64,000 nucleotides of DNA, from positions 124,001-188,000 of the forward strand of contig NZ_CP095397.1 in the NCBI RefSeq assembly GCF_023008545.1. The letters run 5' to 3'. The stretch is from Natribaculum luteum. Lineage in GTDB: Archaea; Halobacteriota; Halobacteria; Halobacteriales; Natrialbaceae. Position numbers and translations under genes: made by a program. The notes under the pieces were generated by a model. That model was not told the origin of the DNA and searched no databases. It saw nothing but the letters and a program-made list of their open reading frames with translations. Below, one piece after another: positions 10,103 to 25,422 of this stretch (position 1 is the stretch's first letter; the number at the start of each line of letters is the position of its first letter).

Positions 10103-10204
10103 GCGACGGGGTTCGTCAGGGCCTGTGATAAATCCGTGGGTATACAGCGCACGCCCGCTCCGAATGAGAAGGTTAAAGAAACAGACCGCACTACGGGAAA
10201 GTGA

Positions 10205-10355
10205 GCCCGGGTGGCTTAGCTGGACATAGCGCCGCACTCATAGGGTTCAGAGATTCGGTGCGGTTTCGCCTTGGAAGCCTCCCTGTCCCTCGAGGACTGC
10301 CGAGCCTCGAACCTGGGACATGCGGAGATCGAGGGTTCGGAGCCCTCCCCGGGCA
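10205..10355 (+). tRNA. tRNA-Met (CAT), elongator type, with intron
   Basis: Acceptor arms GCCCGGG (10205-10211) and CCCGGGC (10348-10354) with discriminator A. The anticodon stem CCGCA (10232-10236) pairs with TGCGG (10321-10325) across an intron of about 77 bases, roughly 10243-10319, inserted just after anticodon CAT (10239-10241). The T arm is GAGGGTTCGGAGCCCTC. Elongator tRNA-Met genes of haloarchaea are known to carry an intron of about 75 bases at this site, removed by the splicing endonuclease at a bulge-helix-bulge. The acceptor lacks encoded CCA. Confidence 0.93.
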
Positions 10356-10554
10356 CTGACTTTCTACGCGACGTCACAAAGTAGCGAGACGTGTCTGAAC
10401 GCGAGTGTGCACGTCTGCTCGAGTCTGTCACACTCCACCGCCGGTGACGACGAACGCTCTCGCCAGGCCGTATCCCGACAGAGCGAGTTACGGTGTCAGC
10501 AGCTGCGACGTCAACCCGTTCGCTGGCGGAAGACCGTTCTCAGTCCCGGGGCCC

Positions 10555-10568
10555 CTATATGACTATAG
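10555..10568. promoter_or_regulatory. Inverted repeat in the AOR promoter region
   Basis: CTATA-tgac-TATAG lies about 55 bases before the AOR start, flanked by GGGGCCC. It both looks like a TATA region and is an exact inverted repeat, so it could be a core promoter with an overlapping operator. The 200 bases between the tRNA and this site show no gene. Confidence 0.35.
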
Positions 10569-10620
10569 CCCACACACATCACGTCAAGTGTTAATACGTC
10601 CCAGACACAACTAGAGCGTA

Positions 10621-12420
10621 ATGACGCGTACCGCTCGGATTTTGCGGGTCGACCTCTCCGACGGTTCGATCTCGAGTCGTCCCATCCCCACAGCGTGGCT
10701 CGAGAAGTTCGTCGGGGGGAAGGGGCTGGGAGCCCGGTACCTGTACGAGGAACTCGACCCGGGCACCGATCCGCTCTCCCCGGAGAACGTTCTCCTCTTT
10801 GCGGTGGGGCCGCTGACCGGGTACACGCCCGGCGAGCAGCGATACGCAGCGATCACGAAGTCGCCGCTGACTGGAGCGTTTCTGGACTCGTACAGTGGGG
10901 GATCGTTTCCCGGACGGCTCGCGGGTTCGCTCGGCGACCACCTCCTTCTGGCGGTGACGGGCGAGGCCGAGCGTCCGGTCGTGCTGTCGGTCGCCGACGG
11001 CGAGGCGACGCTCGAGTCGGCCGACGACCTGTGGGGCGCAGACGCCGAGATGACCGCCGAACGGTTCCCCGACGCGGCCGTCGCGTGCGTCGGGCAGGCG
11101 GGCGAGAACGGGGTGCGGTACGCCACGATCGCCTCCGACGGGGGCGAACACCACGCCGGCCGCGGCGGAGCGGGAACGGTGATGGGTGCCAAGAAGCTGA
11201 AAGCGGTCGTCGCCCGCGGGTCGGCACCTGAAGGACTCACGGAGATCCGAGAGCGCTACGGGGAGGCCTTCGCCGAGAGCGACGCGGGCCGGTGGCTCGC
11301 GGCCAGCGACACGTTGGAGACGGTCGACTTCGCCGATCAGGTCGGCGTACTGCCGACTCGCGGGTGGCAGGAGGGACGATTCGAGGGGGCCGAAGAGATC
11401 GGAATCGAGCGGGTTCGGGAGACCGCACACGTTCGAGAGCGCCCGGACGATCCGGTCCCCGGCGGATTCCGCGTCGAAGTCGATGATGACGAGAGCGTCC
11501 CCCGTGGGTCGACGCCGATCGCGCTGGGTGCGGGACTGGGGATCGACGACTTCGACGCGGTGGCGACGCTGGGGGCGATCTGTGATCGACTCGCGATGGA
11601 CGTGATCTCGGCTGGCAACGCGGTGGCGTGGGCAGTGCGGGCGAGCCAGGAGGGTCTGCTCGAGCGCGACCTGGCCTTCGGCGACGAGACGGCCGCCCGG
11701 ACACTCATCGAAGAGATCGCCCACCGGTCGACGCCGCTGGGAGACGCGCTCGCGAAGGGCGTGGAAGGCGCAGCCGAGCAGTACGGAGGCGAGGAGCTGA
11801 TCCCGACGGTCAAGGGGATGGACCTCTCCTCGTACGATCCGCGGGGCGCGGAGACGATGGCGCTCGCGTACGCCACCAGCGACCGGGGAGCGTGTCACCG
11901 CCGCGCCCGTCCGGTGGAGGTAGAGCCGGTCTGCGGCCGGGAGTGGAGTTCCGACGAGCAGGTCACCACGGTGATCGAAGAGCAAAATCGCCGCGCGGTG
12001 CTCTGGAGTTTGATCGCGGACGACTTCCTCGAGGACGTGTTGCGCGCCGATCTCGGTGCCGAGTGGCTGGCTGCCGTCGGGTACGACCACGAGCCGGAAG
12101 ACCTGGCGCTCGCGGGAGAGCGGATCTGGACGCTGGTCCGGCTGTTCAACGTCCGAGATGGGTTTTCCCGGGCGGACGACGAACTGCCGGCGGCGCTGAC
12201 GGTGCCGCTTGAGGGCGGGCCCAGCGAGGGGAACGCCATCGACCCCGCCGAGTTCGAGACGCTGCTCGAGGCGTATTACGCCCGGCGCGGCTGGGACGAA
12301 TCGGGGCGTCCGACCCGACAGCTACTCGAGCGCCTGGACCTGGTTGACGTTCCGGACGAGGAGACGACGGTACCGCAGGTCCCCGGCACCTCCTCAGGCG
12401 AGGTGAGCGGGGATGACTGA
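10621..12420 (+). CDS. Aldehyde:ferredoxin oxidoreductase family protein lacking [4Fe-4S] ligands
   Basis: A 599-residue member of the tungstopterin AOR family, whose enzymes oxidise aldehydes to acids with ferredoxin. The N-terminal pterin domain is clear: ILRVDLSDG, FVGGKGLGARYLY, GPLTGYTPGEQRYAAITKSPLTG and RGGAGTVMGAKKLKAV near residue 185. Domain 2/3 marks are present: LGAICDRLAMDVISAGN near 320 and DPRGAETMALAYATSDRGACH near 407. The canonical CxxCxxxC and the fourth distal Cys are absent; the protein has only four Cys, none clustered. Electron transfer to ferredoxin by the usual route is therefore doubtful. The next gene overlaps by eight bases. Confidence 0.85.
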   Translation: MTRTARILRVDLSDGSISSRPIPTAWLEKFVGGKGLGARYLYEELDPGTDPLSPENVLLFAVGPLTGYTPGEQRYAAITKSPLTGAFLDSYSGGSFPGRLAGSLGDHLLLAVTGEAERPVVLSVADGEATLESADDLWGADAEMTAERFPDAAVACVGQAGENGVRYATIASDGGEHHAGRGGAGTVMGAKKLKAVVARGSAPEGLTEIRERYGEAFAESDAGRWLAASDTLETVDFADQVGVLPTRGWQEGRFEGAEEIGIERVRETAHVRERPDDPVPGGFRVEVDDDESVPRGSTPIALGAGLGIDDFDAVATLGAICDRLAMDVISAGNAVAWAVRASQEGLLERDLAFGDETAARTLIEEIAHRSTPLGDALAKGVEGAAEQYGGEELIPTVKGMDLSSYDPRGAETMALAYATSDRGACHRRARPVEVEPVCGREWSSDEQVTTVIEEQNRRAVLWSLIADDFLEDVLRADLGAEWLAAVGYDHEPEDLALAGERIWTLVRLFNVRDGFSRADDELPAALTVPLEGGPSEGNAIDPAEFETLLEAYYARRGWDESGRPTRQLLERLDLVDVPDEETTVPQVPGTSSGEVSGDD

Positions 12421-13207
12421 CAGCATCGACCTCGACGACCTCGACGTCGAGGACGAGGAGGACGAGGCCAACTACGGCGACTGGATCTGGCGCGGCGAGG
12501 GCGACCCGGCGGACGAACCCGCCTCCCCGTGGGCTGACGACCGACGGTCGACCGACGACGTGGACCCGGCAGGACGGGCCGACCAGGACGACCGCCCGGA
12601 GGCGGGACCGACGGGCGAACGGACCTCGACGCCGGCGGTGGACGATCCAGCAAACGCCGAAGACGCCGAGACGGCGACCGACTCCGCTGGCGGGGCGAAC
12701 GCCGATCGAAAGGCTGCCCCGAGAGTGCCGAGGACGTCCCGGGGCCCCGTCGGAATACCGAAAGACGCCGGCGGCGCTGGCGGTACCGGCGGCGGGTCGA
12801 GGACCCCGTCCAGTGGTGCGAAACCGGACGCGTCCGGCCCCCACGGCGGCGACGCCGACGAGATGACGATGGCACTCACGTACGACGCGATCCGGGGGGT
12901 CGAGGATCCACGGTACGTGATCGCGAGCGCCAGGGAGTGGGCCGACTGGATCGGAATCGTCGGGGAGGTCTCGACGCCGACCATCCAGAAGTTCCAGCGG
13001 GACGTGGGGATCGACGTCGACTTCTTCGGCGGTTCGGCCACCGGGCCGGCCGAACGGCTCGCGGACGTCGACCGACGATCGATGTTCTACGCCGAGCGGA
13101 TGGTCGTAGTCGGACCGGAGGACGACGCGTGGATCGCGAAAGCGGCCGACTGGGAGTTCGTGCCGCTCGAGGAGGCCGCCGAGAAGGCGGGCTGGGAACT
13201 CGAGTGA
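12413..13207 (+). CDS. Acidic linker plus conserved C-terminal domain; AOR partner
   Basis: A 264-residue protein whose start overlaps the end of the AOR gene, so the two are almost certainly cotranscribed. Residues 1-130 are acidic and low in complexity (DDLDVEDEEDEAN and Gly/Ser/Pro-rich stretches). Residues about 143-264 form a compact domain (MTMALTYDAIRGVEDPRYV...WADWIGIVGEVS...FFGGSATGPAERL...MVVVGPEDDAWIAKAADWEF). No Cys. Tight coupling suggests a dedicated partner of this AOR, perhaps a subunit or assembly factor. I do not recognise a characterised family; it may be one of the haloarchaeal DUFs. Confidence 0.6.
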   Translation: MTDSIDLDDLDVEDEEDEANYGDWIWRGEGDPADEPASPWADDRRSTDDVDPAGRADQDDRPEAGPTGERTSTPAVDDPANAEDAETATDSAGGANADRKAAPRVPRTSRGPVGIPKDAGGAGGTGGGSRTPSSGAKPDASGPHGGDADEMTMALTYDAIRGVEDPRYVIASAREWADWIGIVGEVSTPTIQKFQRDVGIDVDFFGGSATGPAERLADVDRRSMFYAERMVVVGPEDDAWIAKAADWEFVPLEEAAEKAGWELE

Positions 13208-13252
13208 GACGAGATCTGGACGGCGTCTCGAGTCGGACGGTCTGGCCGTTTG

Positions 13253-13287
13253 ACGGTATACTTTTAATATCGTTGGGACAATACCGT
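13253..13287. promoter_or_regulatory. Inverted repeat flanking a TATA box
   Basis: ACGGTAT (13253-13259) and ATACCGT (13281-13287) are exact inverted arms 21 bases apart. They bracket CTTTTAATAT, a good TATA box. The first gene of the small-protein run starts at 13310. The arrangement suggests a separate promoter for 13310 onward with an operator around the core. Confidence 0.4.
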
Positions 13288-13309
13288 TTTTCGTGGGTGA
13301 CGATAGCAT

Positions 13310-13576
13310 ATGACTATACGGACCGCACTCCGAACCTCGCGACTGGCCACGTACGCGATCCTGTTCGTTCTGGTGTGGTTACTGCTGACGACCTACCGGG
13401 TCGCCACGAGCTTCGACTGGTCGACGATCACGTCGCCGAGTTTCACCGGTCCAAACGCCGTTGGGGGGATCGTCGGCGTCGTAGTGCTGATCGCTCTGGT
13501 AATGTTGCTGATCGCGCTGTACGGCGAACTGAGCGAGACGGAACCGGCACCCGAACCCTGGCCACCCTCGGAGTAA
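13310..13576 (+). CDS. Small two-helix membrane protein
   Basis: An 88-residue protein with two membrane helices, about residues 13-30 (TYAILFVLVWLLLTTY) and 48-70 (AVGGIVGVVVLIALVMLLIALY), and a short acidic tail. A basic start (MTIRTALRTSR) suggests the N-terminus stays inside. It heads a tightly packed run with the genes at 13578 and 13721. Family not recognised. Confidence 0.65.
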   Translation: MTIRTALRTSRLATYAILFVLVWLLLTTYRVATSFDWSTITSPSFTGPNAVGGIVGVVVLIALVMLLIALYGELSETEPAPEPWPPSE

Positions 13577-13577
13577 C

Positions 13578-13724
13578 ATGCCGTACTTTAGCTGCGAAGG
13601 CTGTGACCACACGATCGACCTCGCGGTGTTCGATCGGGACACGCAGCGAGGCTACTGCCCCGTCTGTGAGGAGACCACGCTGTGGACGATCGAGTTCGAG
13701 GGTGGAGGAGAGGTGTCGCTGTGA
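13578..13724 (+). CDS. 48-aa zinc-ribbon protein
   Basis: A 48-residue frame beginning MPYFSCEGCDHT, one base after the previous stop. Two CxxC pairs, CEGC near residue 6 and CPVC near residue 28, form a rubredoxin/zinc-ribbon knuckle arrangement. The TGA overlaps the GTG of the next gene (GTGA), so translation is likely coupled. It might be a metal-binding or electron-transfer peptide of the AOR group; that is inference from position. Confidence 0.6.
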   Translation: MPYFSCEGCDHTIDLAVFDRDTQRGYCPVCEETTLWTIEFEGGGEVSL

Positions 13725-14080
13725 CCCTCCGCTTCGAAGTCAGTGATCGGTTCGTCGAGGCAGCCGATCAGTGGGCCGAGCGGCGGACGATCGATCGAGA
13801 GGAGGCCCTCGCCACGAAGGCAGAACAGTCCCTGCTGGAGATCGAACACCTCGTCTCCGGGTCCCACGACGTCGAATTCGAGGTCGACGGCCGCGAGATC
13901 CACTACGAACCGACCGAGGACCTGTCGGCGTTTCTCGACCGGTGGTCGTCGAAGACGGGCCTCGAGGAGAGTGCGGTGCTCGCGATGCACGTCGATCTCT
14001 TCGCCAGCGCGTTCCTCGACGAGGTGACCGACGGTGAGCGACAGCCGAACGTGCCGCCCGGGGACGCTGACAAGATTTAA
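13721..14080 (+). CDS. Conserved haloarchaeal protein of unknown function
   Basis: A 119-residue protein with a GTG start inside GTGA, overlapping the stop of the zinc-ribbon gene. An ATG at 13682 in the same frame is less likely because it would overlap that gene by 40 bases. The sequence is helical and acidic (RFVEAADQWAERRTIDREEA; EDLSAFLDRWSSKTGLEESA), without Cys or membrane segments. No family recognised. It is placed with the AOR-associated small genes. Confidence 0.55.
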   Translation: MTLRFEVSDRFVEAADQWAERRTIDREEALATKAEQSLLEIEHLVSGSHDVEFEVDGREIHYEPTEDLSAFLDRWSSKTGLEESAVLAMHVDLFASAFLDEVTDGERQPNVPPGDADKI

Positions 14081-14110
14081 GCGGCCCCCAGAATAATGTG
14101 TTGATATACC

Positions 14111-14257
14111 ATGTCACACCAGGATAGCGGGTGGCGGCCAAAGGGTGCCACGGAGATCTACAACGGGTACGAAGTGTGGGATCACGGCGTTCACGCACAC
14201 GAGGTAAACTGCGGCGACACGGAGGCCTGCCACGACGACGAGCACGACCACGAGTAG
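14111..14257 (+). CDS. 48-aa His-rich peptide
   Basis: A 48-residue frame starting MSHQDSGWRPKGATEIYNGY and ending in a metal-loving tail: HGVHAHEVNC, then CHDDEHDHE. With eight His and two Cys it is likely to bind a transition metal. A TATA-like TTGATATACC lies just before the ATG, so it may be read from a leaderless message. It meets the DyP-like gene tail to tail with no gap. Family unknown. Confidence 0.5.
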   Translation: MSHQDSGWRPKGATEIYNGYEVWDHGVHAHEVNCGDTEACHDDEHDHE

Positions 14258-15484
14258 TCACGGAAACGCACGCTCTGCTCGCGGCGGCACGTAGAAGTTC
14301 GCTCTCGACAGCACCTCGACGAAGTCCAGAATGCCGTTGTTCTCCCGGTCGTTCACGGTCCCGGGCGACTCGTGTTCCTCGCGCAGCCACCAGCCGTTCA
14401 TGGCGTCGCGCGTCGTCACGAAGTCCTCGAGGTCTTTCTGGAGCGAGAGGAAGTGAACGCCGGCGTGCCCGCTGTCGACGGTATTAAAATCACGCCGGAG
14501 GAGAAGCGGTTCCCCGTCCTCGCGGACGCGAGCGACTTTCTCCCAGTGGCCGACGACGCCCTCGTCACGAGCGTGGTCGGTGACGTTATCGGTGAACGGG
14601 AGGTCTGTCTCCAGTGCGTCGACGTCCGCCGGCGTAAACTCCGGTGAGAACATCCGCTCGGTGCGCTCGGATTCGTCCATCCCCCACCACGCGTCGAGCG
14701 ACTGCCGGAGGTGTGAGAGGTGCATCGTGGTCCCGCCCTCGTACGGCCCGTCCTCGATGGTGACCCTGTCCTCGCTCGCCTGGGCACCTCTCACGTTCGA
14801 GAAGACACCCATAAAGTTCGGTACGTCCGAGGGAATCTCCGAGGGAACGCCATCGGTGTCGGCGTGGTCGGCCGGCAACCCGTCACCAGTGAACCCGGTT
14901 CGGCGCGTCCGGATCGACAGCACGTCTCCAAGCCGCTCCTCGACCGTCTCACCGGCGAGTTCCGAGTCCGAGTCGAACATCGCGCTCTCGACCGCGTTCA
15001 GGTGAGAGGGATCGTCGCTGGCGAGCACGAGCGCGGCGTCGAACGAGAGCAGGTCAGGGTCGTCGGTGCGGGACAGCACCTGCGGGTGGCGCACCGGCGA
15101 GGCCTCGAGCCGATCCAGTCGCTCGAAGTAGTCGCTGCCCCACCCGAGCATGTGTAACAGTCCTTCGGGCCCGTAGTCGAAGGCGGCCTCGAGCGTTCGT
15201 ATCGCGCGCTCGACGGTGGCGGCATCTTCTTCCGTCGGCTCACCGTCGAGGGTGAGAAGGAGGATCCGGAAGTGGCGAGGAAGGAGCCGGTTGCCGTCCT
15301 CCCTGGCCGCGAGGCGCTCGTTCCACGCGTGCTGGCGCCGCGGGAGTTCGTCCCCTCGAGGGTTCGGCGGCAGGTCGGCCGACGGTCCCACGGTTCCCTG
15401 CTCCGAGCGCCCGAAGCACCCCGCCAGTCCGACGGCACCCGCCAATCCGGTGAGGCGCCGCAGCAGATTGCGACGTAGTGTCAT
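14258..15484 (-). CDS. Secreted DyP-peroxidase-like lipoprotein
   Basis: A 408-residue protein with an N-terminal twin-arginine-like signal (MTLRRNLLRRLTG) and lipobox LAGC near residue 22, so it is probably lipid-anchored outside. The body resembles DyP-type peroxidases/deferrochelatases: PNFMGVFSNVRGAQASE, GGTTMHLSHLRQSLDAWW, then GHWEKVARV and LLLRRDFNTV...VHFLSLQKDLEDF near the end, where the haem-ligand His and the RRDFN/FLSLQKD strands of DyPs lie. The usual GxxDG distal-Asp motif reads GVFSN, so peroxidase activity is doubtful. Identification is by pattern, moderately sure. Confidence 0.6.
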   Translation of the reverse strand: MTLRRNLLRRLTGLAGAVGLAGCFGRSEQGTVGPSADLPPNPRGDELPRRQHAWNERLAAREDGNRLLPRHFRILLLTLDGEPTEEDAATVERAIRTLEAAFDYGPEGLLHMLGWGSDYFERLDRLEASPVRHPQVLSRTDDPDLLSFDAALVLASDDPSHLNAVESAMFDSDSELAGETVEERLGDVLSIRTRRTGFTGDGLPADHADTDGVPSEIPSDVPNFMGVFSNVRGAQASEDRVTIEDGPYEGGTTMHLSHLRQSLDAWWGMDESERTERMFSPEFTPADVDALETDLPFTDNVTDHARDEGVVGHWEKVARVREDGEPLLLRRDFNTVDSGHAGVHFLSLQKDLEDFVTTRDAMNGWWLREEHESPGTVNDRENNGILDFVEVLSRANFYVPPRAERAFP

Positions 15485-15594
15485 ACCACGGTATCGGGAC
15501 GACGACCTGTGCGAACATAAGGCTTGTTCGGACCGCTCGGCCGGGTTCTCGTCGAAGGGGTAAGACCTTTGAGCGTCGTTCGAGTTGTAATGGC

Positions 15595-15735
15595 ATGGGC
15601 AAACATATCATGCATCTCGATCCCAGTTTGCCACTCCCGCCCGAACTCGGCGCCGCCATCATCGCCATCGGGGTGCTCGTCCTCCTCGTAATCGGGTACG
15701 ACGCCTACCGGTACGCGCAGAAGACTGACGGATGA
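15595..15735 (+). CDS. 46-aa single-helix membrane peptide
   Basis: Starts MGKHIMHLDPSLPLPPELG and has one membrane helix, about residues 19-36 (AAIIAIGVLVLLVIGYDAY), then a short basic tail. Its stop overlaps the start of the next gene (ATGA), marking an operon. Its size and form recall accessory one-helix subunits of membrane redox complexes, but no family is recognised. Confidence 0.55.
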   Translation: MGKHIMHLDPSLPLPPELGAAIIAIGVLVLLVIGYDAYRYAQKTDG

Positions 15736-16007
15736 CGATGGAGCGATCAGGTCGGGGTGGCGACATTCGCACGGCTCTCGGATACCTCCGGATCGTCGTG
15801 TACGCCTGCGCGGCGGTACTGGCGATTACGCTCCTCGTCGTCGGCACCGTCGGACTCATCGCGGAACTGAAAGGGACCTGGCACTGGCAGATCCACCTCC
15901 ACACCACGGTTAGCTACCTGGGACTGTTCGTCGGCTATCTCCTGGCGCTGCTCGTCCCCCTGTTTATGGTCCTCGTGGTCGGCCGACGGATGATCGACGA
16001 TGCGTAA
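15732..16007 (+). CDS. Small two-helix membrane protein
   Basis: A 91-residue protein; helices at about residues 18-42 (LRIVVYACAAVLAITLLVV) and 60-83 (SYLGLFVGYLLALLVPLFMV), with a His-containing loop between (WHWQIHLHT). It overlaps genes on both sides by four and eight bases, so all three small membrane proteins form one operon. The loop His residues could face a metal or haem. Function unknown. Confidence 0.6.
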   Translation: MTMERSGRGGDIRTALGYLRIVVYACAAVLAITLLVVGTVGLIAELKGTWHWQIHLHTTVSYLGLFVGYLLALLVPLFMVLVVGRRMIDDA

Positions 16008-16239
16008 GATTACACACCCGTTCGGGCTGCTCGCCGTCGCTTCCCTGGGGGCGCTTTTCCTGCTGGTCGCCGGCGCGGGTGCGATCGCGGTCTGGGCCAG
16101 TCTGAACGATACCTGGAGACACTTCTTCCTCATGGAACAGACCTTCGCTACGCTCACACCGATCGTGCTCGGGGTCGCGGCAGTCGCGGTGATCACGAGT
16201 CTCGCGGCCATACTCCGAAGCGGTTCTCGTAACGACTGA
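16000..16239 (+). CDS. Small two-helix membrane protein
   Basis: A 79-residue protein, last in the three-gene membrane set. Helices at about residues 9-32 (LLAVASLGALFLLVAGAGAI) and 52-72 (LTPIVLGVAAVAVITSLAAI), joined by WASLNDTWRHFFLMEQ. That loop resembles the one in the gene before it (ELKGTWHWQ), hinting that the two are related or pair with each other. It converges on the TorD-like gene, 115 bases away. Confidence 0.6.
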   Translation: MRKITHPFGLLAVASLGALFLLVAGAGAIAVWASLNDTWRHFFLMEQTFATLTPIVLGVAAVAVITSLAAILRSGSRND

Positions 16240-16354
16240 ACCGAGTGACACGCTCCTCACACCGACGCGAGGAACGTCAGTGACGTCCAGCGGCTACGAT
16301 CGGTCTCTGTCACCAGGAGAGCGAGATGGACGTGACACTGGTCGTAATTCCAGC

Positions 16355-16981
16355 TCACGCCAGTTGAACGACGATCTCCTCCTCGAACTCGACCAGCCCC
16401 TGGACGACCAGGGCGGCGGCGAGGTACAGCCCCGGTTCGGCCTCCTGGCGCAACTCCTCGACGAAGACGTCGATCCACTGCGTGAGGTGGTCCTCGATGA
16501 ACACGCGCTCGAATCCGACGGTCTCCTCCTGGCCCGCACGCTGGCGCTCGATCAGGTTCCGCAGGAAGGCCAGTTCGACCGCGATGAAGTCGCTCTCCTC
16601 GGGGTACTCCTCGGGGGGCAGCCAGCCGGCGGCCCGGTAGCTCTCCTCGACTCTGGCCAGCCCGTCGCCGAGGTACTGGGTGTCCTCGCGATAGTACGAC
16701 TCGTGGGGTAACACCGGCGGTCGCGGTCCGACGAAGAGTTCGGTGTACTCCCGGGAGAGTTCGTCGCACACTACCTCGACCGGGCGACCGCGATTCTGCT
16801 CGAGCCAGCCTCGCAACACGTCGAATCCTTCGTCGAGCGGATCGTTGATCGACTCCGCGGGGAGTACTGGCTCGTCGTCGAGCAGACGCACGACGAACTC
16901 CTCGGAGGGCGTATCCCAGAAAACCTCGATCGCGAAGTCGACGAGTTCGAGTCGGGCGTCGTAGACGGCCTCCTCGTTCAT
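16355..16981 (-). CDS. TorD/DmsD-type molybdoenzyme chaperone
   Basis: A 208-residue all-helical protein of the TorD family, cytosolic chaperones that hold the Tat-exported molybdopterin subunit until its cofactor is inserted. Family marks: YTELFVGP near residue 85 followed by PPVLPHESYYREDTQYLG, and a late DHLTQWIDVFVEEL (EDHLxxW...F). Its ATG overlaps the stop of the HdrA-like gene (ATGA), so the two are one operon. The obvious client is the formate-dehydrogenase-like subunit encoded divergently upstream. Confidence 0.85.
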   Translation of the reverse strand: MNEEAVYDARLELVDFAIEVFWDTPSEEFVVRLLDDEPVLPAESINDPLDEGFDVLRGWLEQNRGRPVEVVCDELSREYTELFVGPRPPVLPHESYYREDTQYLGDGLARVEESYRAAGWLPPEEYPEESDFIAVELAFLRNLIERQRAGQEETVGFERVFIEDHLTQWIDVFVEELRQEAEPGLYLAAALVVQGLVEFEEEIVVQLA

Positions 16982-19104
16982 GCGTTCCCACCCCCTTCGA
17001 AGAGGAGGCTACTCCGACAGTCGTCGCAGTACTCGAAGACGCTGTGGTCGGCGTCGGGCGCGATTCCCTCGACCAGATTACCGACCTCGGACTGGACTTT
17101 CTCCGCCGAGGCCACGCTGGTAAACGGCTTCCCACAGCGGACACACTCGAGCATCTCGTCCTCGCGGACGGTCGTCCACGCGTCGCCGTCCCGGTTCTCG
17201 GGGAGCAAGGAGAGGTCGAGTCCAGCTTCCATCGTGATCGCCGTCTCCGGGCAGCCCTCCTCGCACAGCCCACAGTTGACACAGCGGGAGTGGTTGAACT
17301 GGAGTTTCCCATCCGTGGTGCGCCGGATGGCGTCGGTCGGACAGAGGTTTGTACACGTCGGCGTGAGCGTGCACGCGTCGTTCACGGCCATCACCCCGAA
17401 GTCTTTCAGCCCCTCGATCTCCTCGCGCTCGGGATCGACGTCTTCCAGGAGTGCCCGGACGCTCTCGAGGGTCCATCCGTGGCTGTCGAACGGTGGGTTC
17501 GGTCGCTCGTCGTCGATCTCCCCCGTCGCCTCGTGTTCGCCGGCGGGAACCGGCGAGTCCTCGAGTGTTAGCTCGACGAACGTCGACACCTCCTCGGCGA
17601 AGGCCTCGGCACCGTCCGGTTCCGGTGCGAAGAAGCCGACTCGCTCGCCGAGACCGAGGTCGCGCGTGGCGCGGTTGAGTCGATCGACGAGTGCCGCCTT
17701 CGGGTCCGGCCCGGAGTGCAGACAGGACCCGCCACAGCCGACGATCGCGACGCCGTCGGCACCCGCCGCGAGCGCGTGCAGCACGTGCGCCTCGCCCACG
17801 GCGTCCGTACATGGCACGTTCACCGGGAGGATCGGCGGATACTCGAGGTCGTCCTCGCGGGCGGCTTTGCGTCCGTACGCGCGGAGCCGTTCGCTCGCAC
17901 GCTCCGAGCAGACGAAGGCGATCACCTGCTGGTCGATTCCGTCGTCCCCTCTCCAGGGGAGCCAGCCGCCCTCCTCGCCCTCGCTCTCGAGGAGCGCCTC
18001 GACCTCGCGGGCGATGCGCTCGTTAGAGGGGTCCCGGAGCGTGGTCGCCCCGGTCGGACAGGAACTGGTACACGCACCGCAGTTCTGGCAGGCGACCTCG
18101 TCGAACGCAACCTCGTCGATCGCAGAGCGTCGAACCGCGTCGTGGGGACAGGCCTCGACGCACTCGTTGCACCCCTGCTGGCTCGACTCACCGGCCGCGC
18201 ACACGTCCATCTCCAGGTCGAGGAACTTCGGCTTCTCCGTGCCACCGAGCAGTGACTCGACTGCGGCGATCGTCTCCTCGTCGACGGGACCGGTGTAGTA
18301 GCCCACGACGCCGCTACGGGCGCGCGGTCGTCCGTCCGGGTAGACGACCTGGTCGACCTCGAGGATCCGCCGGACGCCCTCGGGGTCGATCGCGTCGGTC
18401 GGGCAGACGTCCATCCACTCGCCCGCCGGCGCGTCTGGGGCGACGTCGACGGGGACCTCCGTGACCGCTCCCTCGGGACCCTCCCGGACGCAGTCCATGC
18501 AGGTGATGCACTCCGCCGTGACCCTCGCCTCGAGGGTGAGTTCGAAGTCGCCGTACGACCCCGAGACGTCGACGACCCGCCCCCGCTCGACGGCGACGTC
18601 GGCGAGTCCCTCCTCCCCGGCGAACTCCTCGCCGTCGGCGACGAGCGTCACGTCGGCGGTGTCGGCGAGGGCGGCAGCGACGTCGGCGTCGCCGACCACC
18701 GCCACGCTGTCGCTGGCTTCCCTCGAGACCGACCGCGAGACCGGTTCGGACTGGAGCCCGGCCTGGGTCGCGTTGATGAGCCGTGCGGTCTTGTCCGTCG
18801 CGGCGGCCTCGTCGTGGACCCACCCGCAGGTCTCGCGGTGGTCGACGAAGACCGTCGCGTCCGGGTGGAGGCCGTGATCGTCTGTGACGGCACGGATACG
18901 CCGCTGACAGCCAGGGTCCGGAGTCGTCGCGATCACCTGATCGAGGTCGTACTCGTCGATCACCGTCGACATCGCTTCACGCCCGTCCTGACAGAGCATC
19001 GCCGAACTGGCGACGACGTCCACCTCTCGGACGCCGTCTCGGACGGCCTCGAGGTCGACGTCGACTGCCCCACCACACGAGCACACGAACGCTCCGACGT
19101 TCAT
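16978..19104 (-). CDS. HdrA/MvhD-like multi-[4Fe-4S] electron-transfer protein
   Basis: A 708-residue cytosolic iron-sulfur protein. It opens like HdrA (MNVGAFVCSCGG...SAMLCQDG...TPDPGCQRR...ETCGWVHD), then has a ferredoxin segment near residue 205 (CITCMDC), a pair near 310-365 (CNECVEACP; CQNCGACTSSCP), an MvhD-type domain near 425-510 (IAFVCSERASERL...VPCTDAV...VGCGGSCLHS), further clusters (CTNLCP; CVNCGLCEEGCP), and a CxxC pair at the end. No GxGxxG flavin motif is visible, unlike true HdrA. It likely passes electrons between the formate dehydrogenase and soluble carriers. A Met 12 bases farther upstream (19116) is an alternative start. Confidence 0.82.
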   Translation of the reverse strand: MNVGAFVCSCGGAVDVDLEAVRDGVREVDVVASSAMLCQDGREAMSTVIDEYDLDQVIATTPDPGCQRRIRAVTDDHGLHPDATVFVDHRETCGWVHDEAAATDKTARLINATQAGLQSEPVSRSVSREASDSVAVVGDADVAAALADTADVTLVADGEEFAGEEGLADVAVERGRVVDVSGSYGDFELTLEARVTAECITCMDCVREGPEGAVTEVPVDVAPDAPAGEWMDVCPTDAIDPEGVRRILEVDQVVYPDGRPRARSGVVGYYTGPVDEETIAAVESLLGGTEKPKFLDLEMDVCAAGESSQQGCNECVEACPHDAVRRSAIDEVAFDEVACQNCGACTSSCPTGATTLRDPSNERIAREVEALLESEGEEGGWLPWRGDDGIDQQVIAFVCSERASERLRAYGRKAAREDDLEYPPILPVNVPCTDAVGEAHVLHALAAGADGVAIVGCGGSCLHSGPDPKAALVDRLNRATRDLGLGERVGFFAPEPDGAEAFAEEVSTFVELTLEDSPVPAGEHEATGEIDDERPNPPFDSHGWTLESVRALLEDVDPEREEIEGLKDFGVMAVNDACTLTPTCTNLCPTDAIRRTTDGKLQFNHSRCVNCGLCEEGCPETAITMEAGLDLSLLPENRDGDAWTTVREDEMLECVRCGKPFTSVASAEKVQSEVGNLVEGIAPDADHSVFEYCDDCRSSLLFEGGGNA

Positions 19105-19206
19105 TGGCAATGCCATGTGGTGGCATGGCAATAACCCTTCTGGGTATCGTGGTCCGTTCGGGTACGCCCGCCGCTCGAGTGGATCGGGCCATCGGCAATC
19201 TCCTGT

Positions 19207-19238
19207 ATTGACCTGGGTTTTCGTCAATATTTATAAAT
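19207..19238. promoter_or_regulatory. Bidirectional promoter with inverted repeat
   Basis: ATTGAC (19207-19212) and GTCAAT (19223-19228) are exact inverted arms ten bases apart. Directly beside them is ATTTATAAAT (19229-19238), a perfectly palindromic TATA box able to serve both directions. It lies 125 bases from the HdrA-like start and 151 bases from the fdhA start. Another ATTGAC occurs near 19282. This is a likely shared control region for the two divergent operons. Confidence 0.5.
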
Positions 19239-19388
19239 GGTTAAAAAATAAGTAGTTTCAATAGGGAGAACTCGGTAGTAATTGACTAGCGTGGCAAATA
19301 GTAACACAAACGTGGGTGGGTTATTCGTCACGGGAAGACTGACCGCAGCGGGTTGCCCGCCACGAAGAGTCAAAGCGGCAGACAAAAC

Positions 19389-22300
19389 ATGAGTACGAAT
19401 ACAGAGCCAGTGTCACTCGACCTCGACCGACGCTCATTCATGAAAGCGAGCGCGTTGGCAGGTATCGCCGGCCTGGGTGTAGGCGGCGTCGGTCGATCGC
19501 TATCGCAGGGCTCCGACGAGGACGCTACGAGTCCCGATGCAGAACTGACCAAGACGATTTGTAACTACTGTTCAGTTGGGTGTGGGTTCCGTGGTGTACG
19601 CGACGGAAACGCCTTCGTCGGGATGGAATCGTGGAACGAACACCCGGTCAACGCCGGGAGCCTCTGCTCGAAGGGCGCCGGGATTCTCGAGACCGAGCAC
19701 TCCGAGAAGCGACTCAAACACCCGATGGTCCAGGAGAACGGCGAGTGGCGTCGACTCTCCTGGGGTGAGGCCTACGACCGGCTGGCGACCGACATCCGCG
19801 CCCTCTGGCCCGACTCCGACGTCGACCCCTCCGAGGCCGTCGACGTCGACGAGGAGGCCAGTCGAGAGAGCGTGATGATCCTCGGGAGCGCCCACCACTC
19901 CAACGAGGAGGCCTACGCCATCCGAAAGCTGGCGGCGTTCATGGGGACGAACAACATCGACCACCAGGCGCGCATCTGTCACTCCACGACCGTCGCCGGC
20001 CTGGCGAACACGTGGGGGTACGGCGCGATGACCCAGCCGATCAACGACTACCGGAACTTCGATCTGAACATCATCATCGGGCAAAACCCCGCCGAAGCCC
20101 ACCCGGTAGCGATGCAACACATCCTCGAGGGGCAGCGTCGCGGCGGAACGATCGTCAACGTGGACCCACGGTACACGAAGACCTCGGCTCACGCGGACTA
20201 CTTCTACCGGATGCGCCCCGGGACGGACGTGGCCCTCATCATGGGGCTGTTGCGGTATCTCAGAGACGAAGGCGAACTCGCGCTCGATCCGGACGGCGAC
20301 GACACCGGCGGGAACATGCTCACAGACCGTGTCATGGGCTGGCCGGACGTCGAGGCGGAACTCGACCAGTACGACCTCGATACCGTCGCGGAGATCACCT
20401 GGATCGACCGCGAGGACATCGAGGAACTGGGCGACCTCATCATCGAGAACTCGCCACACGTGCAGATCGAGTGGGCGATGGGCGCCACCCAGCACAACAA
20501 CGGCACCCAGAACATCCGCTCGTACGCCCTGCTGAGCCTCGCGTCGGGGAGTTCGGCCCGCAGCGGCGGTGGCCTGCAGGTCATGCGCGGCCACGCGAAC
20601 GTACAGGGTGCGACCGACCTCGCCGTCGCGAGCCACATCTTACCCGGCTACTACGGGCTCGACCCCGGCGGCTGGTCGTGGTGGGCCGACGTCTGGGACA
20701 AGAACCCCTACACCAGCGGGAGCACCTCCTTCGAGGAGCTCTACGAGAAGTTCGAGCTCATGCCGGAGGACAGGTACGTCGAGCAGAGCCCGACCCTCGA
20801 GAGCGCAGACGAAATCGACACCTCGACGCCGGCGGAGAACTCGATGATGTTCCAGAACGGGCTGACCGTGGCCCGCTGGTTCGAGGCTGCCCTCGACCAG
20901 GACGACCGACTCCAGGAGACGCCGATCTACCAGCCCGACCAGGTGAAGATCGCGATCTTCTGGGGTCACTCGGCGAACTCGATCAGCGAGATGCGCCAGA
21001 TGAAAGCCGGGATGGAGAACCTCGACCTGCTCGTCGTGATCGACGTCTTCCCCGGCGTCGCGACGGTCCTTCCGGACTACGACGAGGGACCGCCGATACT
21101 CGTGTTGCCGGCCTCGAGCCAGTACGAGCACTACCGCTCGCTGACGAACTCTCACCGCGCGGTCCAGTGGTCCGAACCGGTCGCCGACCCCGCGCACAAC
21201 TCCCGACCCGACCTGCGGATCATGCAGGAACTGGCCGATCACCTCGGATTCGGCGAGCACTTCGACTGGGGCTCCGGGACCAGGATGCACAACGGGAAAT
21301 CCACCTACGAGGACGTCATCCGCGAGTTCAACCTCGGGACGAACACGATCGGCTATCGCCAGTCCCCCGAGCGGCTCCAGCAGCACCTGGAGTACGAGGA
21401 GTACTTCGATCAGGACACCCTGCGGGCCCCGAAGGACGCAGACATTCCGGTGGCAGGTGACTACTGGATGCTGCCCTGGCCCTGCTGGGGAGAGGGACAT
21501 CCGGGAACGCCCATCATCTGGAACGACGACCTCGATCCTCGAGAGGGTGGTCAGGACTTCCGGACCAGGTGGGGCGTCCAGGCGCCCACGGAATCGGAGT
21601 GGGCAGAGATGCCCGACGACGACGACTACCCGCTGGCCGAGACGGTCGACCAGCAGGGAGAGGAGGGACTCAGCCTCGTCCGCGACCCCTACGAGCCAGA
21701 CTGGCTGGACGCCGTCAACGAACGATTGCCGGCGGAGGACCAGATCGATCAGATCTACGGCGTTCCCGAGTATCCCGGCTGGAAGACGACGTTCCCGGAC
21801 AGTCTGCTCGATCCGAACCGCACGACCCAGTCCGACGAACTCACGATTCCACAGCAGTACGCGCTGGATCCGACGGAGTCCGTGTACACCGCCGCACAAG
21901 CACTCGACGAGTCGACCGTCGGCGACCGCGACAAGGACATCGACGTGGGGTTCTACGAGCAGTACGACTACGCCCAGCCCGACGCGCCGACCGGGCGCGG
22001 CCGGGCGCGGGCGGTGGTGTGGAACTTCCTCGACAAGGTACCGGTCCACCGCGAACCGCTCGAGAGCCCGAGCATGGACCTCGTCGAGGAGTGGCCGGCA
22101 AACGGCCAGCAGAAGAACTTCTATCGGCTCGACCAGAACAACGCGGCCGAACAGGAGCAGGCGACCCAGGCCGCCGTCGACCAGGACATGAACGTGATCA
22201 TGACCACTGGCCGGCAGGTCGAACACCAGGGCGGCGGTGCCGAGACGCGCAGCAACATCTACACGGCCGACCTGCAGCCCCACATGTACGCCGAGATGAC

Positions 22301-22715
22301 GCCCAACATGGCCGACGAACTCGGCGTCGACGGGGGCGACCTGGTCGTCGTCTCGACGACTGATCGTGGCTCGGTGCTCGTGAAGGCGCGCGTGACCGAC
22401 CGTCCGAACGATCGGGAGGTCTTCTTGCCGTACCACTGGGGCGGCATCTTCCAGGGCGAGAGCCTGGAGGACAAGTACCCCGACGGCACCGTTCCGTACG
22501 CGATCGGCGACTCGGTCAACAGCATCACGTCACGGGGCTACGACGTCGAGACGCAGATGCAGGAGACCAAGGTAGCGATGGTCCAGGTCCAGCGGGCGAC
22601 GCGGGAACTGCTCGACGAACTCAACATGGACCCGGACATCGAGTTCCCCCAGGACCGCGACGACGTCGGCACGCAGAAGAGCTTCGACGTCCGTCTGAAC
22701 ACGACAACACAATGA
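19389..22715 (+). CDS. fdhA: Formate-dehydrogenase-type molybdopterin catalytic subunit, Tat-exported
   Basis: A 1108-residue DMSO-reductase-superfamily protein closest in pattern to respiratory formate dehydrogenase alpha (FdnG). A twin-arginine signal, DLDRRSFMKASALAG, starts at residue 12. A [4Fe-4S] site follows: CNYCSVGCGF ... CSKGAG. The active-site segment is RICHSTTVAGLANTWGYGA, with Cys in the position of selenocysteine next to His. Then GQNPAEAHPV and DPRYTKTSAHADYFYRMRPG. The C-terminal guanine-dinucleotide-binding domain ends with LPYHWGGIF. It heads an operon with fdhB, a small membrane gene and cytochrome b. The start MSTNTEP was chosen to place the Tat motif near the N-terminus. 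Confidence 0.88.
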   Translation: MSTNTEPVSLDLDRRSFMKASALAGIAGLGVGGVGRSLSQGSDEDATSPDAELTKTICNYCSVGCGFRGVRDGNAFVGMESWNEHPVNAGSLCSKGAGILETEHSEKRLKHPMVQENGEWRRLSWGEAYDRLATDIRALWPDSDVDPSEAVDVDEEASRESVMILGSAHHSNEEAYAIRKLAAFMGTNNIDHQARICHSTTVAGLANTWGYGAMTQPINDYRNFDLNIIIGQNPAEAHPVAMQHILEGQRRGGTIVNVDPRYTKTSAHADYFYRMRPGTDVALIMGLLRYLRDEGELALDPDGDDTGGNMLTDRVMGWPDVEAELDQYDLDTVAEITWIDREDIEELGDLIIENSPHVQIEWAMGATQHNNGTQNIRSYALLSLASGSSARSGGGLQVMRGHANVQGATDLAVASHILPGYYGLDPGGWSWWADVWDKNPYTSGSTSFEELYEKFELMPEDRYVEQSPTLESADEIDTSTPAENSMMFQNGLTVARWFEAALDQDDRLQETPIYQPDQVKIAIFWGHSANSISEMRQMKAGMENLDLLVVIDVFPGVATVLPDYDEGPPILVLPASSQYEHYRSLTNSHRAVQWSEPVADPAHNSRPDLRIMQELADHLGFGEHFDWGSGTRMHNGKSTYEDVIREFNLGTNTIGYRQSPERLQQHLEYEEYFDQDTLRAPKDADIPVAGDYWMLPWPCWGEGHPGTPIIWNDDLDPREGGQDFRTRWGVQAPTESEWAEMPDDDDYPLAETVDQQGEEGLSLVRDPYEPDWLDAVNERLPAEDQIDQIYGVPEYPGWKTTFPDSLLDPNRTTQSDELTIPQQYALDPTESVYTAAQALDESTVGDRDKDIDVGFYEQYDYAQPDAPTGRGRARAVVWNFLDKVPVHREPLESPSMDLVEEWPANGQQKNFYRLDQNNAAEQEQATQAAVDQDMNVIMTTGRQVEHQGGGAETRSNIYTADLQPHMYAEMTPNMADELGVDGGDLVVVSTTDRGSVLVKARVTDRPNDREVFLPYHWGGIFQGESLEDKYPDGTVPYAIGDSVNSITSRGYDVETQMQETKVAMVQVQRATRELLDELNMDPDIEFPQDRDDVGTQKSFDVRLNTTTQ

Positions 22716-22726
22716 GGCGATAGCAT

Positions 22727-23386
22727 ATGCAACAATCCACCGAAGTAATGCGAGACGGGGTAATGAGCGTCGGAGAGGGGACCCGAATCTTCCCCGACGT
22801 AGAAGCCTGCATCGACTGTGGTGGCTGCGTCGTCGCCTGCAAGCGCACGTGGGACGTGCCCCGCAACGAACAGCGAATCAGCATCGCGACGATGCTCGAG
22901 GGTCAGGAGGCCGCCGCTGGTCTCGGCAACTCGGAGGCCATCCAGCAGGGTGAGTCGCCGGGTGAGACCTCGGTCCCGATGCAGTGTTATCACTGCGAGA
23001 ACGCGCCGTGCGTGTCGGTCTGTCCGACCGACTCGCTGATCAAGACCGACGGGGACTTCGTGAACGTCCGAGACGACCTCTGTATCGGCTGCCAGTACTG
23101 TCTCTCGGCGTGTCCCTTCGGCGCCCCCCAGTTCCCGGAGGCGGGCGATGGCGTCGCTTCCGCCGCACTCGGGACGGGCGGTACGATGGACAAGTGTACG
23201 ATGTGCGAAGAGCGCCAGGAGATCGGCAAGGGTCCCGCGTGTGCCGAAGAGTGTGCGACGGACGCGATTCTGGTCGGGACGCCCGGCGAGATCAGCGACG
23301 AGCTAGAGCGGCGCGGCAGCGGGTCGTTTTTCAACGAGCAAGCACTGCAGGTCGTCTTCGGCGAGGAGTCGAGTGATATCGCATGA
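22727..23386 (+). CDS. fdhB: [4Fe-4S] ferredoxin subunit of the formate dehydrogenase
   Basis: A 219-residue four-cluster ferredoxin of the FdnH/NrfC/DmsB type. Cys groups: CIDCGGCVVACKR near residue 26, CYHCENAPCVSVCP near 87, CIGCQYCLSACPFG near 119, and CTMCEERQEIGKGPACAEEC near 158. It should wire the molybdopterin subunit to the membrane cytochrome. It has no signal peptide, so it presumably rides out with the Tat-bearing partner. It starts 11 bases after fdhA stops, and its stop overlaps the next start (ATGA). Confidence 0.9.
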   Translation: MQQSTEVMRDGVMSVGEGTRIFPDVEACIDCGGCVVACKRTWDVPRNEQRISIATMLEGQEAAAGLGNSEAIQQGESPGETSVPMQCYHCENAPCVSVCPTDSLIKTDGDFVNVRDDLCIGCQYCLSACPFGAPQFPEAGDGVASAALGTGGTMDKCTMCEERQEIGKGPACAEECATDAILVGTPGEISDELERRGSGSFFNEQALQVVFGEESSDIA

Positions 23387-23799
23387 GCGACACGGCTGAT
23401 CTCCCAGAGGTCACGGGGTACAAGCGGTGGCAGGTGTACCTGAGCGCCGTGGTCGCCCTGGTCGTTTCGCTGGGTATCGTGTGGTGGGTGTCCGGACGAA
23501 TCCTCGGCGTCGAGGAGATCTTCCGGGTATCCCCGACGGTCGAGGGTGGCGGGATCGGGACGGACTGGCTGGCTGGAAACACCGTCACCGAACTGGATCT
23601 GCTCATCGCCCTGGTACACGCGGCAGACGTCATCATGGGCGTGTTCATTCTGGTCATGGTATTCGTTCACTGGACCGCATTCCGGCGGCTTGCGGGCCGG
23701 ATGCGCCAGCCGACTCGCGAGGAGTCCGACGCCGTCGCGGCCGACGGAGGCAGACCACGCAACGATGGCGGCGAGTCACAGGGAGGTGACGAAAGATGA
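23383..23799 (+). CDS. Membrane protein of the fdh operon
   Basis: A 138-residue protein with two membrane helices, about residues 17-40 (YLSAVVALVVSLGIVWWV) and 71-98 (LLIALVHAADVIMGVFILVM), and a polar, Gly/Asp-rich tail. Both ends overlap neighbours by four bases, so it is part of the fdh complex operon. His residues near the second helix (LVHAAD, FVHWTA) could bind haem. It may be a split or extra membrane anchor. Family not recognised. Confidence 0.65.
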   Translation: MSDTADLPEVTGYKRWQVYLSAVVALVVSLGIVWWVSGRILGVEEIFRVSPTVEGGGIGTDWLAGNTVTELDLLIALVHAADVIMGVFILVMVFVHWTAFRRLAGRMRQPTREESDAVAADGGRPRNDGGESQGGDER

Positions 23800-24812
23800 G
23801 CACGCTCGACCACGGGAAGTTCACTCGCGTGACGACGACGTTCCACTCGCTGCTGGCGCTCGACGTGTTCTTGCTGTTCTTTACGGGCTACGCGATCATG
23901 TTCAACGACCAGTTGTGGTGGCTCATCACGGTGCTTGGAGGTGCGACTGGCGTGACTGCACTTCATCGGATCGCCGGATTCGGTCTCATCGTGCTGGTCA
24001 TCTTCTGGTTCCTGTTACAGGTGCTCTCGCCGACGGGTCGATCGAACTTCAGCGCGGTCCTCCCGAGAAGAGGCGACATGGAGGCGTTCGTTCAGGACGT
24101 CCAGTTCGTGCTCGGCCGAGCCGACGAACGCCACCCCAACGCGCGGCAGTTCGCCGGCTACGAGTCCGACGAAGTGCCGCTGCTGTCCTACGTCGGCAAG
24201 GGCGTCGTGTGGATCTTCTCCATCGAGTTGCTCCTGTTGACGATCTCCGGGCTGCTCATCTGGAACAAGACCGGGCTGATGGCAGTCTACAACACGAGGC
24301 CTGCGGCGATGGCCTTCGTCACGTTCCACGGCCTCCTGGGCGTCATCATGCTGATGGGGGTGATGTTCCACATCTTCGAGCACGGTATGCATCCAGCCTT
24401 CTACCCCGTCGAGACGAAGGCGTTTATCCCCAAGAGCATGATCCCGGAGTACCACGCCGAAGAGGAAGACCACGACGGCACCGGTATCGAGCACCTGTCG
24501 CTGGCGCCCTCCTGGGGAACGGTTTCGACAGTTATGGGCGTGCTCACCGTCGTCGGGATCGTGTCGGTGTTAGTCGCGAGCCTCGTCGAAGAAGGGTATC
24601 CGATTCCGCGGGAACTGCACGTCACCCAGGCGGATCCGTTCGGAATCCTGTTGACCATCGGCGTCAACGTGGGCATCCTCGTGCTCGGAGTCGGTATCGT
24701 GCTGTCGACCTACGGTAACCTGCTGCGAATCCGGTGGGAACGCCAGCTCGAACGAGAGCGAGCCGCTGCGACCGATGGCGGCACGGTGTCCCGAACCGAG
24801 GAAAACGACTAG
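23796..24812 (+). CDS. fdhC: Cytochrome b membrane subunit (FdnI/formate dehydrogenase gamma type)
   Basis: A 338-residue di-haem cytochrome b-like protein. Membrane helices lie at about residues 12-32 (FHSLLALDVFLLFFTGYAIM), 50-75, 140-160 (VWIFSIELLLLTISGLLIW), 175-200 (FHGLLGVIMLMGVMFHIFEH), 240-262 and 285-310. His at the start of helix 1, in TALHRIAG, and in the FHGLLG/MFHIFEHG helix fit haem ligands. It would take electrons from fdhB into the quinone pool. Longer than bacterial FdnI, with extra C-terminal helices. Its end overlaps by four bases the convergent gene at 24809. Confidence 0.82.
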   Translation: MSTLDHGKFTRVTTTFHSLLALDVFLLFFTGYAIMFNDQLWWLITVLGGATGVTALHRIAGFGLIVLVIFWFLLQVLSPTGRSNFSAVLPRRGDMEAFVQDVQFVLGRADERHPNARQFAGYESDEVPLLSYVGKGVVWIFSIELLLLTISGLLIWNKTGLMAVYNTRPAAMAFVTFHGLLGVIMLMGVMFHIFEHGMHPAFYPVETKAFIPKSMIPEYHAEEEDHDGTGIEHLSLAPSWGTVSTVMGVLTVVGIVSVLVASLVEEGYPIPRELHVTQADPFGILLTIGVNVGILVLGVGIVLSTYGNLLRIRWERQLERERAAATDGGTVSRTEEND

Positions 24813-25207
24813 CCGACCAGCTCCGCCCCTTCGGGCGAGAGTTCGACCGTCACGTCCTGGCGCGTCTGTTCCTGTATCTGGTCGAGGTTCCGGGTTAGCA
24901 CCTCGAGGATGTCCTCCGGATTGGGATAGACCAGCATGTTCCCGTCCCCGTCTTCCATCACCAGCTGGGTGTCACTCAAGTTCACCTGGTTGCCTTCGAT
25001 GCTGGCGACGATCGCCGGCAACGCCTCGGCCCCGCCCGGATCGCCCTCCTCGACCATCGTGATGTAGATGGCGTCGACGCCGATGAGGTCTTTGTACTCG
25101 CGGACGCGCTCGGCGCACGCGACCATATCCCGGGTGATCGCCGTCTTCCCGTCGTTGCCGTGGTTCCCTTCGTAACAGTGCTTGCAGACCCGTAATTCCA
25201 TCCGCAT
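24809..25207 (-). CDS. Conserved small protein with N-terminal CxxC
   Basis: A 132-residue protein starting MRMELRVCKHCYEGNHGNDG. The CKHC motif with a nearby His suggests a redox or metal site. The rest is mixed alpha/beta (VDAIYITMVEEGDPGGAEALPA...MLVYPNPEDILEVLTRNL...VELSPEGAELVG). It converges on the cytochrome b gene and starts about 215 bases from the divergent HTH-10 gene. Position suggests a link to the fdh island. Family not recognised; a longer frame to 25249 adds an implausible hydrophobic start. Confidence 0.55.
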   Translation of the reverse strand: MRMELRVCKHCYEGNHGNDGKTAITRDMVACAERVREYKDLIGVDAIYITMVEEGDPGGAEALPAIVASIEGNQVNLSDTQLVMEDGDGNMLVYPNPEDILEVLTRNLDQIQEQTRQDVTVELSPEGAELVG

Positions 25208-25422
25208 CGTTGGTTCTAATAGCCAGAGAAGTATGACAATTTCGACCAAGAGACACGGTATCGTTCTGCGAACAGTCCGGGCGGTGGCATGCGACCGGCC
25301 GATCGTCGAGAAACGTTCGCCAACCGAACGGTCACTCGTCGTGAACTGTCACGGCGAGATGGTGGCGGGAAAGGCTACCGCAAACCAAAACCGTCTATAC
25401 GTGTTTGTGGTGGATTCCGGTG

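Follow-up and report, generated by a model that had tools for sequence, protein, structure and literature searches.

Formate respiration is known in haloarchaea (PMC5437934), and the closest described system is the membrane-bound respiratory formate dehydrogenase (FDH) of haloarchaea (HTSR_1573-1576 of Halodesulfurarchaeum; AArc1_1462-5), an exported enzyme that delivers electrons to menaquinone (PMC5437934, PMC6176080); the enzyme considered here likewise has Fe-S and membrane subunits and is predicted to be exported. In their accessible sections these accounts describe FDH subunits only, with no AOR, no DUF7405 protein and no cassette of small proteins, and the word 'aldehyde' is absent from the accessible text of PMC5437934. 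Searches of the open-access literature found nothing relevant on a haloarchaeal FDH gene cluster with HdrA, nothing on haloarchaeal FDH with small membrane proteins (Haloarcula) and no DUF7405. Here we analyse a stretch of 64,000 nucleotides of Natribaculum luteum (NZ_CP095397.1, positions 124,001 to 188,000; the window), in which positions 10621-25207 are, as judged from gene order in relatives, one haloarchaeal cassette composed of a core and an optional block. The genes are, in order: an AOR-family protein, its DUF7124 partner (D7124), the small proteins TM2, zinc ribbon (ZnR), HEL and HIS, the DUF7405 lipoprotein D7405, the small membrane proteins H, I and J, a TorD-type chaperone, the HdrA-like protein HdrM, the FDH proteins FdhA, FdhB, FdhX and FdhC, and p24809. 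An original prediction had recognised an island of small proteins at 10621-16239; by the same comparison the unit is larger, reaching to about 25.2 kb, with D7405-H-I-J as an optional layer over the core and an AOR devoid of [4Fe-4S] ligands.

The open reading frames (ORFs) of the original prediction are all present and tightly packed, with overlaps of 4 bp (ZnR/HEL, H/I, TorD/HdrM) and 8 bp (I/J, AOR/D7124) and a 1-bp spacing between TM2 and ZnR. Their conservation was followed in 292 Halobacteria genomes (77 genera), of which 33, from 11 genera, encode protein I. The genes from AOR through to those of the FDH subunits keep their order in 32 of 32 20-kb regions of relatives (one of 16.9 kb), most of them including p24809, with small exceptions: HIS lies after J in L049, and L056 and L058 have a HIS match between HdrM and FdhA. 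Detection by tblastn in these 32 loci reached 31 for ZnR, 31 for HIS and 20 for H. The claim that these genes form a unit running on into the fdh genes is thus borne out across 11 genera. The opposite outcome, genes scattered and never co-occurring, was looked for and is not what the genomes contain: HEL is present in 64 of the 292 and a close FdhA in exactly those 64, the 33 genomes with I being a subset of them, and the genomes with a cassette-type D7405 (at least 426 bits; next DUF7405 protein, 312 bits) are exactly the 33 that encode I. A scan of genome contigs gave 28 loci, each with a haloarchaeal title; among them are seven Haloarcula species, Natronomonas gomsonensis, Halorussus aquaticus, Halostella pelagica and Halobaculum gomorrense; one record, from Haladaptatus salinisoli, is plasmid-borne. 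Pooled pN/pS values (NG86) over the cassette genes were 0.06-0.31, indicating purifying selection, and 0.07-0.31 for TM2, ZnR, HEL, HIS, H, I and J (one of six HIS pairs was close to 1); the value for HdrM was unreliable and was not used, and one FdhA pair was also suspect. This selection, together with the recurrence of the small ORFs in the same order over 32 loci, is the ground for taking them as real genes. A chance neighbourhood of unrelated genes was rejected, with a practically negligible probability, since the order kept in 32 loci, the matching genome sets (64/292 and 33/292) and the gain and loss of genes in blocks all contradict it and nothing was found in its favour.

The first gene of the cassette (10621..12420, + strand) encodes a 599-aa protein with both AFOR domains (AFOR_N, E 1e-64; AFOR_C, E 2e-97) and full-length homology to the AOR family (1AOR, 9mqx and WOR83 of Haloferax volcanii, 9q1t; E 1e-91 to 1e-68). 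It departs from this family in the residues replaced relative to 1AOR: CYACPIGC, with three of the cluster Cys, is DDPVPGGF, and DSAGLC is WSLIAD, so that all four [4Fe-4S] Cys are lost; H448 is retained and E313 is Ser (we take H448 and E313 to be the active-site His and Glu); the second pterin motif is altered (D489 to W). The pattern RERxDDxVPGGFRV / W[SC]LxxDDF / VPRG[AST] / DRG[AG]CHRRA, with variation, was found in every aligned member, and the canonical AOR paralogues, five of them in the genome of the window, retain the cluster Cys. Since the replacement residues are themselves conserved, this protein represents a distinct AOR subfamily rather than a decaying gene.

The Cys-less AOR is present in at least 148 of the 292 genomes (those reaching 540 bits, plus G017 and G251). 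All 148 carry an FDH, either over the TIGR01591 cut-off (about 208-211 genomes) or of one of the exported types, and none of the 77 FDH-less genomes has this AOR (Fisher's p 5e-32, kinship ignored and seven ambiguous genomes excluded). Outside the class, in 187 genomes of the phylum, no AOR match reached 540 bits (best 435 bits, 42%). Twenty neighbourhoods from non-HEL genomes were chosen down the ranked match list; in 14 the AOR has within 10 kb an FDH-type enzyme, of three kinds overall, that bears the motif R-x-CH. Five of these enzymes were scanned: four were over the TIGR01591 cut-off and the type 3 enzyme of L161 was under it. In G126 the AOR is absent from the cassette and is located beside a cytosolic FDH instead. 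D7124 (12413..13207, + strand, 264 aa; PF23439, E 4e-37) is the partner of AOR, and DUF7124 stands beside AOR in a divergent FDH type too. FdhD, the usual cofactor chaperone of FDH according to the consulted part of PMC13197769, was not found in this genome. The Cys-less AOR fits best as a non-redox, FDH-dedicated protein acting, most simply, in cofactor handling; it would share with FdhD the putative role of an FDH-dedicated cofactor chaperone, with no claim of homology.

Two further observations concern this family. In G017, G008 and G009 the Cys-less AOR aligns as two pieces inside one open frame, suggesting a mid-protein insertion. In five loci (L152-L155, L157) AOR and DUF7124 adjoin an FDH of a third type, whose FdhA is about 42% identical, and four of the five also have HdrM and p24809; all five are devoid of TM2, HEL, HIS and H-I-J.

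D7405 (14258..15484, - strand) is a 408-aa Tat-type lipoprotein well over the cut-off of DUF7405 (PF24152; 376 vs 27.1 bits, E 2e-112), with a weak match to Dyp_perox_C (E 0.011). Its AlphaFold2 model, built from 22 sequences (pLDDT 73, pTM 0.77), had 50 PDB matches listed by Foldseek, nearly all titled DyP-type peroxidases (best E 1e-15), and VIA gave Z 23.6 to 5jxu_A (289 aligned residues, root-mean-square deviation 3.6). The DyP peroxidase fold is thereby confirmed at the level of the predicted model, in agreement with the 'DyP-like' label of the original prediction; a direct sequence search of the PDB with D7405 found nothing useful. H313 and R330 are invariant and were aligned, by a weak profile match, to H197 and R214 of 9f1o_A, which are presumably its proximal His and distal Arg. 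Haem binding by D7405 is likely on these residues. The protein shares fold, proximal His and distal Arg with DyP-type peroxidases and EfeB; it differs from them in its family (DUF7405), in its low sequence similarity (E 0.06-0.9) and in the GxxDG catalytic Asp, which weak profile matches place at a Ser. Peroxidase activity is therefore uncertain: according to the accessible part of PMC6153280, H2O2 is deprotonated by the distal Asp, the loss of which cripples some DyPs and hardly affects DypB of R. jostii. Some DUF7405 protein is encoded in 261 of the 292 genomes, and the second one of this genome was located at L031 (G000:C1:261406-262434).

D7405 is followed by H (15595..15735, + strand), a one-helix membrane peptide of 46 aa; I (15732..16007, + strand), a two-helix membrane protein of 91 aa with an invariant W-H-W-x-I-H-L motif between its helices; and J (16000..16239, + strand), 79 aa, a two-helix paralogue of I without its histidines, whose loop has an invariant W and an invariant E. 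The similar loop noticed earlier in the last two proteins reflects homology (hhalign probability 94.9, E 4e-8, 42 columns). Sequence comparison indicates that D7405, H, I and J make up an optional block whose four genes are gained or lost together. None of the four was found in the 32 loci (L119-L150) of the 31 other HEL genomes, where HEL/HIS is followed directly by TorD-HdrM-FdhA, save in L143 (FDH unlinked) and in a few loci with other orders of the same set. In a quick FdhA tree, drawn from 57 of the 67 rows of 850 aa or more after removal of ten near-identical ones, the block switches state at least five times, at least four of them forced by starred branches. Finally, in the close pair L055/L140, positions 8356-10327 of L055 (reverse complement) contain D7405-H-I-J against 61 bp in its sister. 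The whole-block absences, the changes on the tree and this near-exact junction are the reasons for considering that the block moves as one piece.

None of the small proteins (TM2, ZnR, HEL, HIS, H, I and J) was over a Pfam or NCBIfam cut-off. TM2 (13310..13576, + strand, 88 aa) has two predicted transmembrane segments, which were found in 30 of 32 relatives, and ZnR (13578..13724, + strand, 48 aa; CxxC...CPxC) has two CxxC pairs with conserved Cys (no other small protein conserves a metal-site pattern) and a weak FmdB-like match under the cut-off. TM2 and ZnR are fused in a single ORF in Halostella pelagica and in the metagenome-assembled genome QS_9_68_17 (loci L101/L052 and L093), and therefore they are probably partners in function. 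HEL (13721..14080, + strand, 119 aa, GTG start) was modelled by AlphaFold2 as two strand-helix-helix units (pLDDT 86). Foldseek found no match to this model at E <= 0.001; it weakly resembles VirC2, DndE, chains of the F relaxosome and single-chain Arc, the best VIA score (Z 6.8, VirC2) being tied with others. Several of these we take to be ribbon-helix-helix proteins, and the model makes a tandem ribbon-helix-helix protein possible. HIS (14111..14257, + strand), a 48-aa peptide, had been described as His-rich, which is correct for the window copy; the relatives conserve instead a core, W-x-P-K-G...EVWDHG, and lack the His-rich tail, so that a His-rich metal-binding peptide was rejected.

The remaining genes are those of the FDH and its companions. 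A TorD/NarJ-type chaperone (16355..16981, - strand; PF02613, E 3e-26) adjoins HdrM (16978..19227, - strand, 749 aa). HdrM resembles HdrA/FlpD (MvhD) of methanogens in its HdrA-like N-terminus, several 4Fe-4S sites and FlpD/MvhD domain, and differs from HdrA in matching parts of it only, with all HdrA models under the cut-off; its HdrA flavin region seems reduced. It is an unusual soluble Fe-S protein beside an FDH that is predicted to be exported. The catalytic subunit FdhA (19389..22715, + strand) has Mo-bisMGD domains and the catalytic Cys motif RxCHxxxVxG (RICHSTTVAG). TIGR01591 (392 of 666 bits) and TIGR01553 (327 of 814) are under their cut-offs and yet its two best matches. The sequence RRSFMK is a candidate RR (Tat) signal, with 16.6 bits to Pfam TAT_signal against a cut-off of 22.7. 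FdhA is accompanied by the 4Fe-4S subunit FdhB (22727..23386, + strand), by FdhX (23383..23799, + strand) and by FdhC (23796..24812, + strand), a cytochrome b of the b561/Ni_hydr_CYTB type (PF01292, E 1e-19). FdhX is a membrane protein of two helices, one of which carries conserved HAAD and HW, candidate haem ligands. The cassette closes with p24809 (24809..25207, - strand), which had no Pfam family above the cut-off; it is the most constrained gene (pN/pS 0.06), has CKxC close to its N-terminus and also adjoins the divergent type 3 FDH. The original prediction had proposed a respiratory or metal-handling complex: the respiratory context is supported by a putatively Tat-exported FDH with cytochrome b and by the formate respiration covered in the consulted part of PMC5437934, and a separate metal-handling role is not sustained, the His-rich tail not being conserved.

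The cassette is best described, from the FdhA tree and a comparison within the genus, as mobile and horizontally exchanged in haloarchaea. FdhA of the window clusters (support 100) with 13 rows that come from other families, and the 12 FdhA rows of its own family sit apart from it in another clade (support 100). In G137, of the same genus, an AOR 96% identical is followed by 119 bp and then by a stretch with a BAT-type regulator; at the position of these 119 bp the window carries 12.9 kb, from D7124 to p24809, a pattern compatible with the block having been inserted or lost. In the window a BAT/HTH_10 regulator lies past the end of the cassette (25423-26082), and the one of G137 adjoins AOR. 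At the other end, just 5' of AOR (10206-10358), a putative intron-bearing tRNA-Met (CAT) was noticed by eye; neither ARAGORN nor Rfam lists it, and an Rfam scan of positions 9900-27000 gave no match.

We consider it somewhat better than an even chance that the island serves as accessory machinery for a respiratory FDH that has been exchanged horizontally, consisting of a non-redox AOR partner and an optional membrane/DyP branch. FdhA and FdhB would oxidise formate outside the membrane, and the electrons would pass via FdhX and FdhC to menaquinone. The Cys-less AOR with D7124 would be dedicated to FDH and non-redox, most likely a protein that, jointly with TorD, holds the Mo/W-pterin cofactor or hands it over while FDH matures; HEL may be a regulator, and TM2 with ZnR a membrane-anchored accessory. 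D7405 and H-I-J may constitute an optional membrane-bound haem branch, in which the small membrane proteins would link the outer-face DyP-fold lipoprotein to FDH or quinone and D7405 would reduce peroxide or a related small oxidant, so protecting or unloading FDH. A stronger version, with the Cys-less AOR standing in for FdhD in haloarchaea and I/J wiring the extracellular FDH to the haem lipoprotein as a 'formate peroxidase' (formate oxidation coupled to the reduction of peroxide or a small oxidant), is offered tentatively and is itself improbable. Several observations weigh against the accessory-machinery reading: AOR lies outside the locus in 7 of the 32 type 1 loci and D7124 in two (absence of AOR from those seven was rejected, a close orthologue being present elsewhere in 7/7 genomes); one of the two pterin motifs of AOR is altered; about 60 FDH genomes have no clear Cys-less AOR (an overcount, since at least G008 and G009 carry the split copy), and it is therefore not universally required; the lysine and arginine counts of I and J are even and favour neither orientation; and, besides the Ser at the catalytic Asp of D7405, the canonical DUF7405 paralogue of this genome is identical to it at all three positions and has no tie to this FDH.

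The same evidence was weighed for other explanations. AOR could be a working tungsten enzyme, producing from formaldehyde or another aldehyde the formate which feeds FDH, with D7124 or HdrM as electron acceptor and the linkage reflecting a pathway; the intact AFOR domains, the retained active-site His and first pterin motif, the constant company of FDH and the many Fe-S sites of HdrM agree with this, but no member checked keeps any of the four cluster Cys, E313 or the second pterin motif, and canonical paralogues with all those residues are encoded in the same genome, so we hold it to be unlikely. That D7405-H-I-J is instead an EfeB-like unit for haem/iron acquisition or haem delivery, supplying haem b to FdhC/FdhX rather than serving as an electron branch, is possible, if rather doubtful: no permease-like protein is present (I and J have two helices, H one), the block is confined to this FDH and 31 genomes carry the same FDH without it, against which stand the EfeB structures among the fold matches (6jbn_A, Z 22.7; 2y4e_A, Z 22.6), the weak sequence match of D7405 to 5de0, deposited as a deferrochelatase, the lost catalytic Asp and the small membrane partners. 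The invariant WHWxIHL of I and the paralogy of I and J would also suit an extra quinone/haem module of FDH, a split cytochrome-b-like pair, with D7405 merely a co-transcribed protective peroxidase; such a module is not a probable one, given that D7405 accompanies I in every one of the 33 genomes, J lacks the histidines and D7405 is divergently transcribed.

The accessory-machinery reading would give a testable function, in formate-respiring salt archaea, to seven families under the Pfam/NCBIfam cut-offs and to DUF7124 and DUF7405. It concerns an AOR subfamily without the ligands of the iron-sulfur cluster and yet seen only in FDH-bearing genomes, and it would make FDH maturation without a detectable FdhD directly testable. 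The four-gene block, apparently gained and lost whole on repeated occasions, would be a natural experiment on how a respiratory enzyme is extended by small membrane proteins and a protein of the DyP fold.

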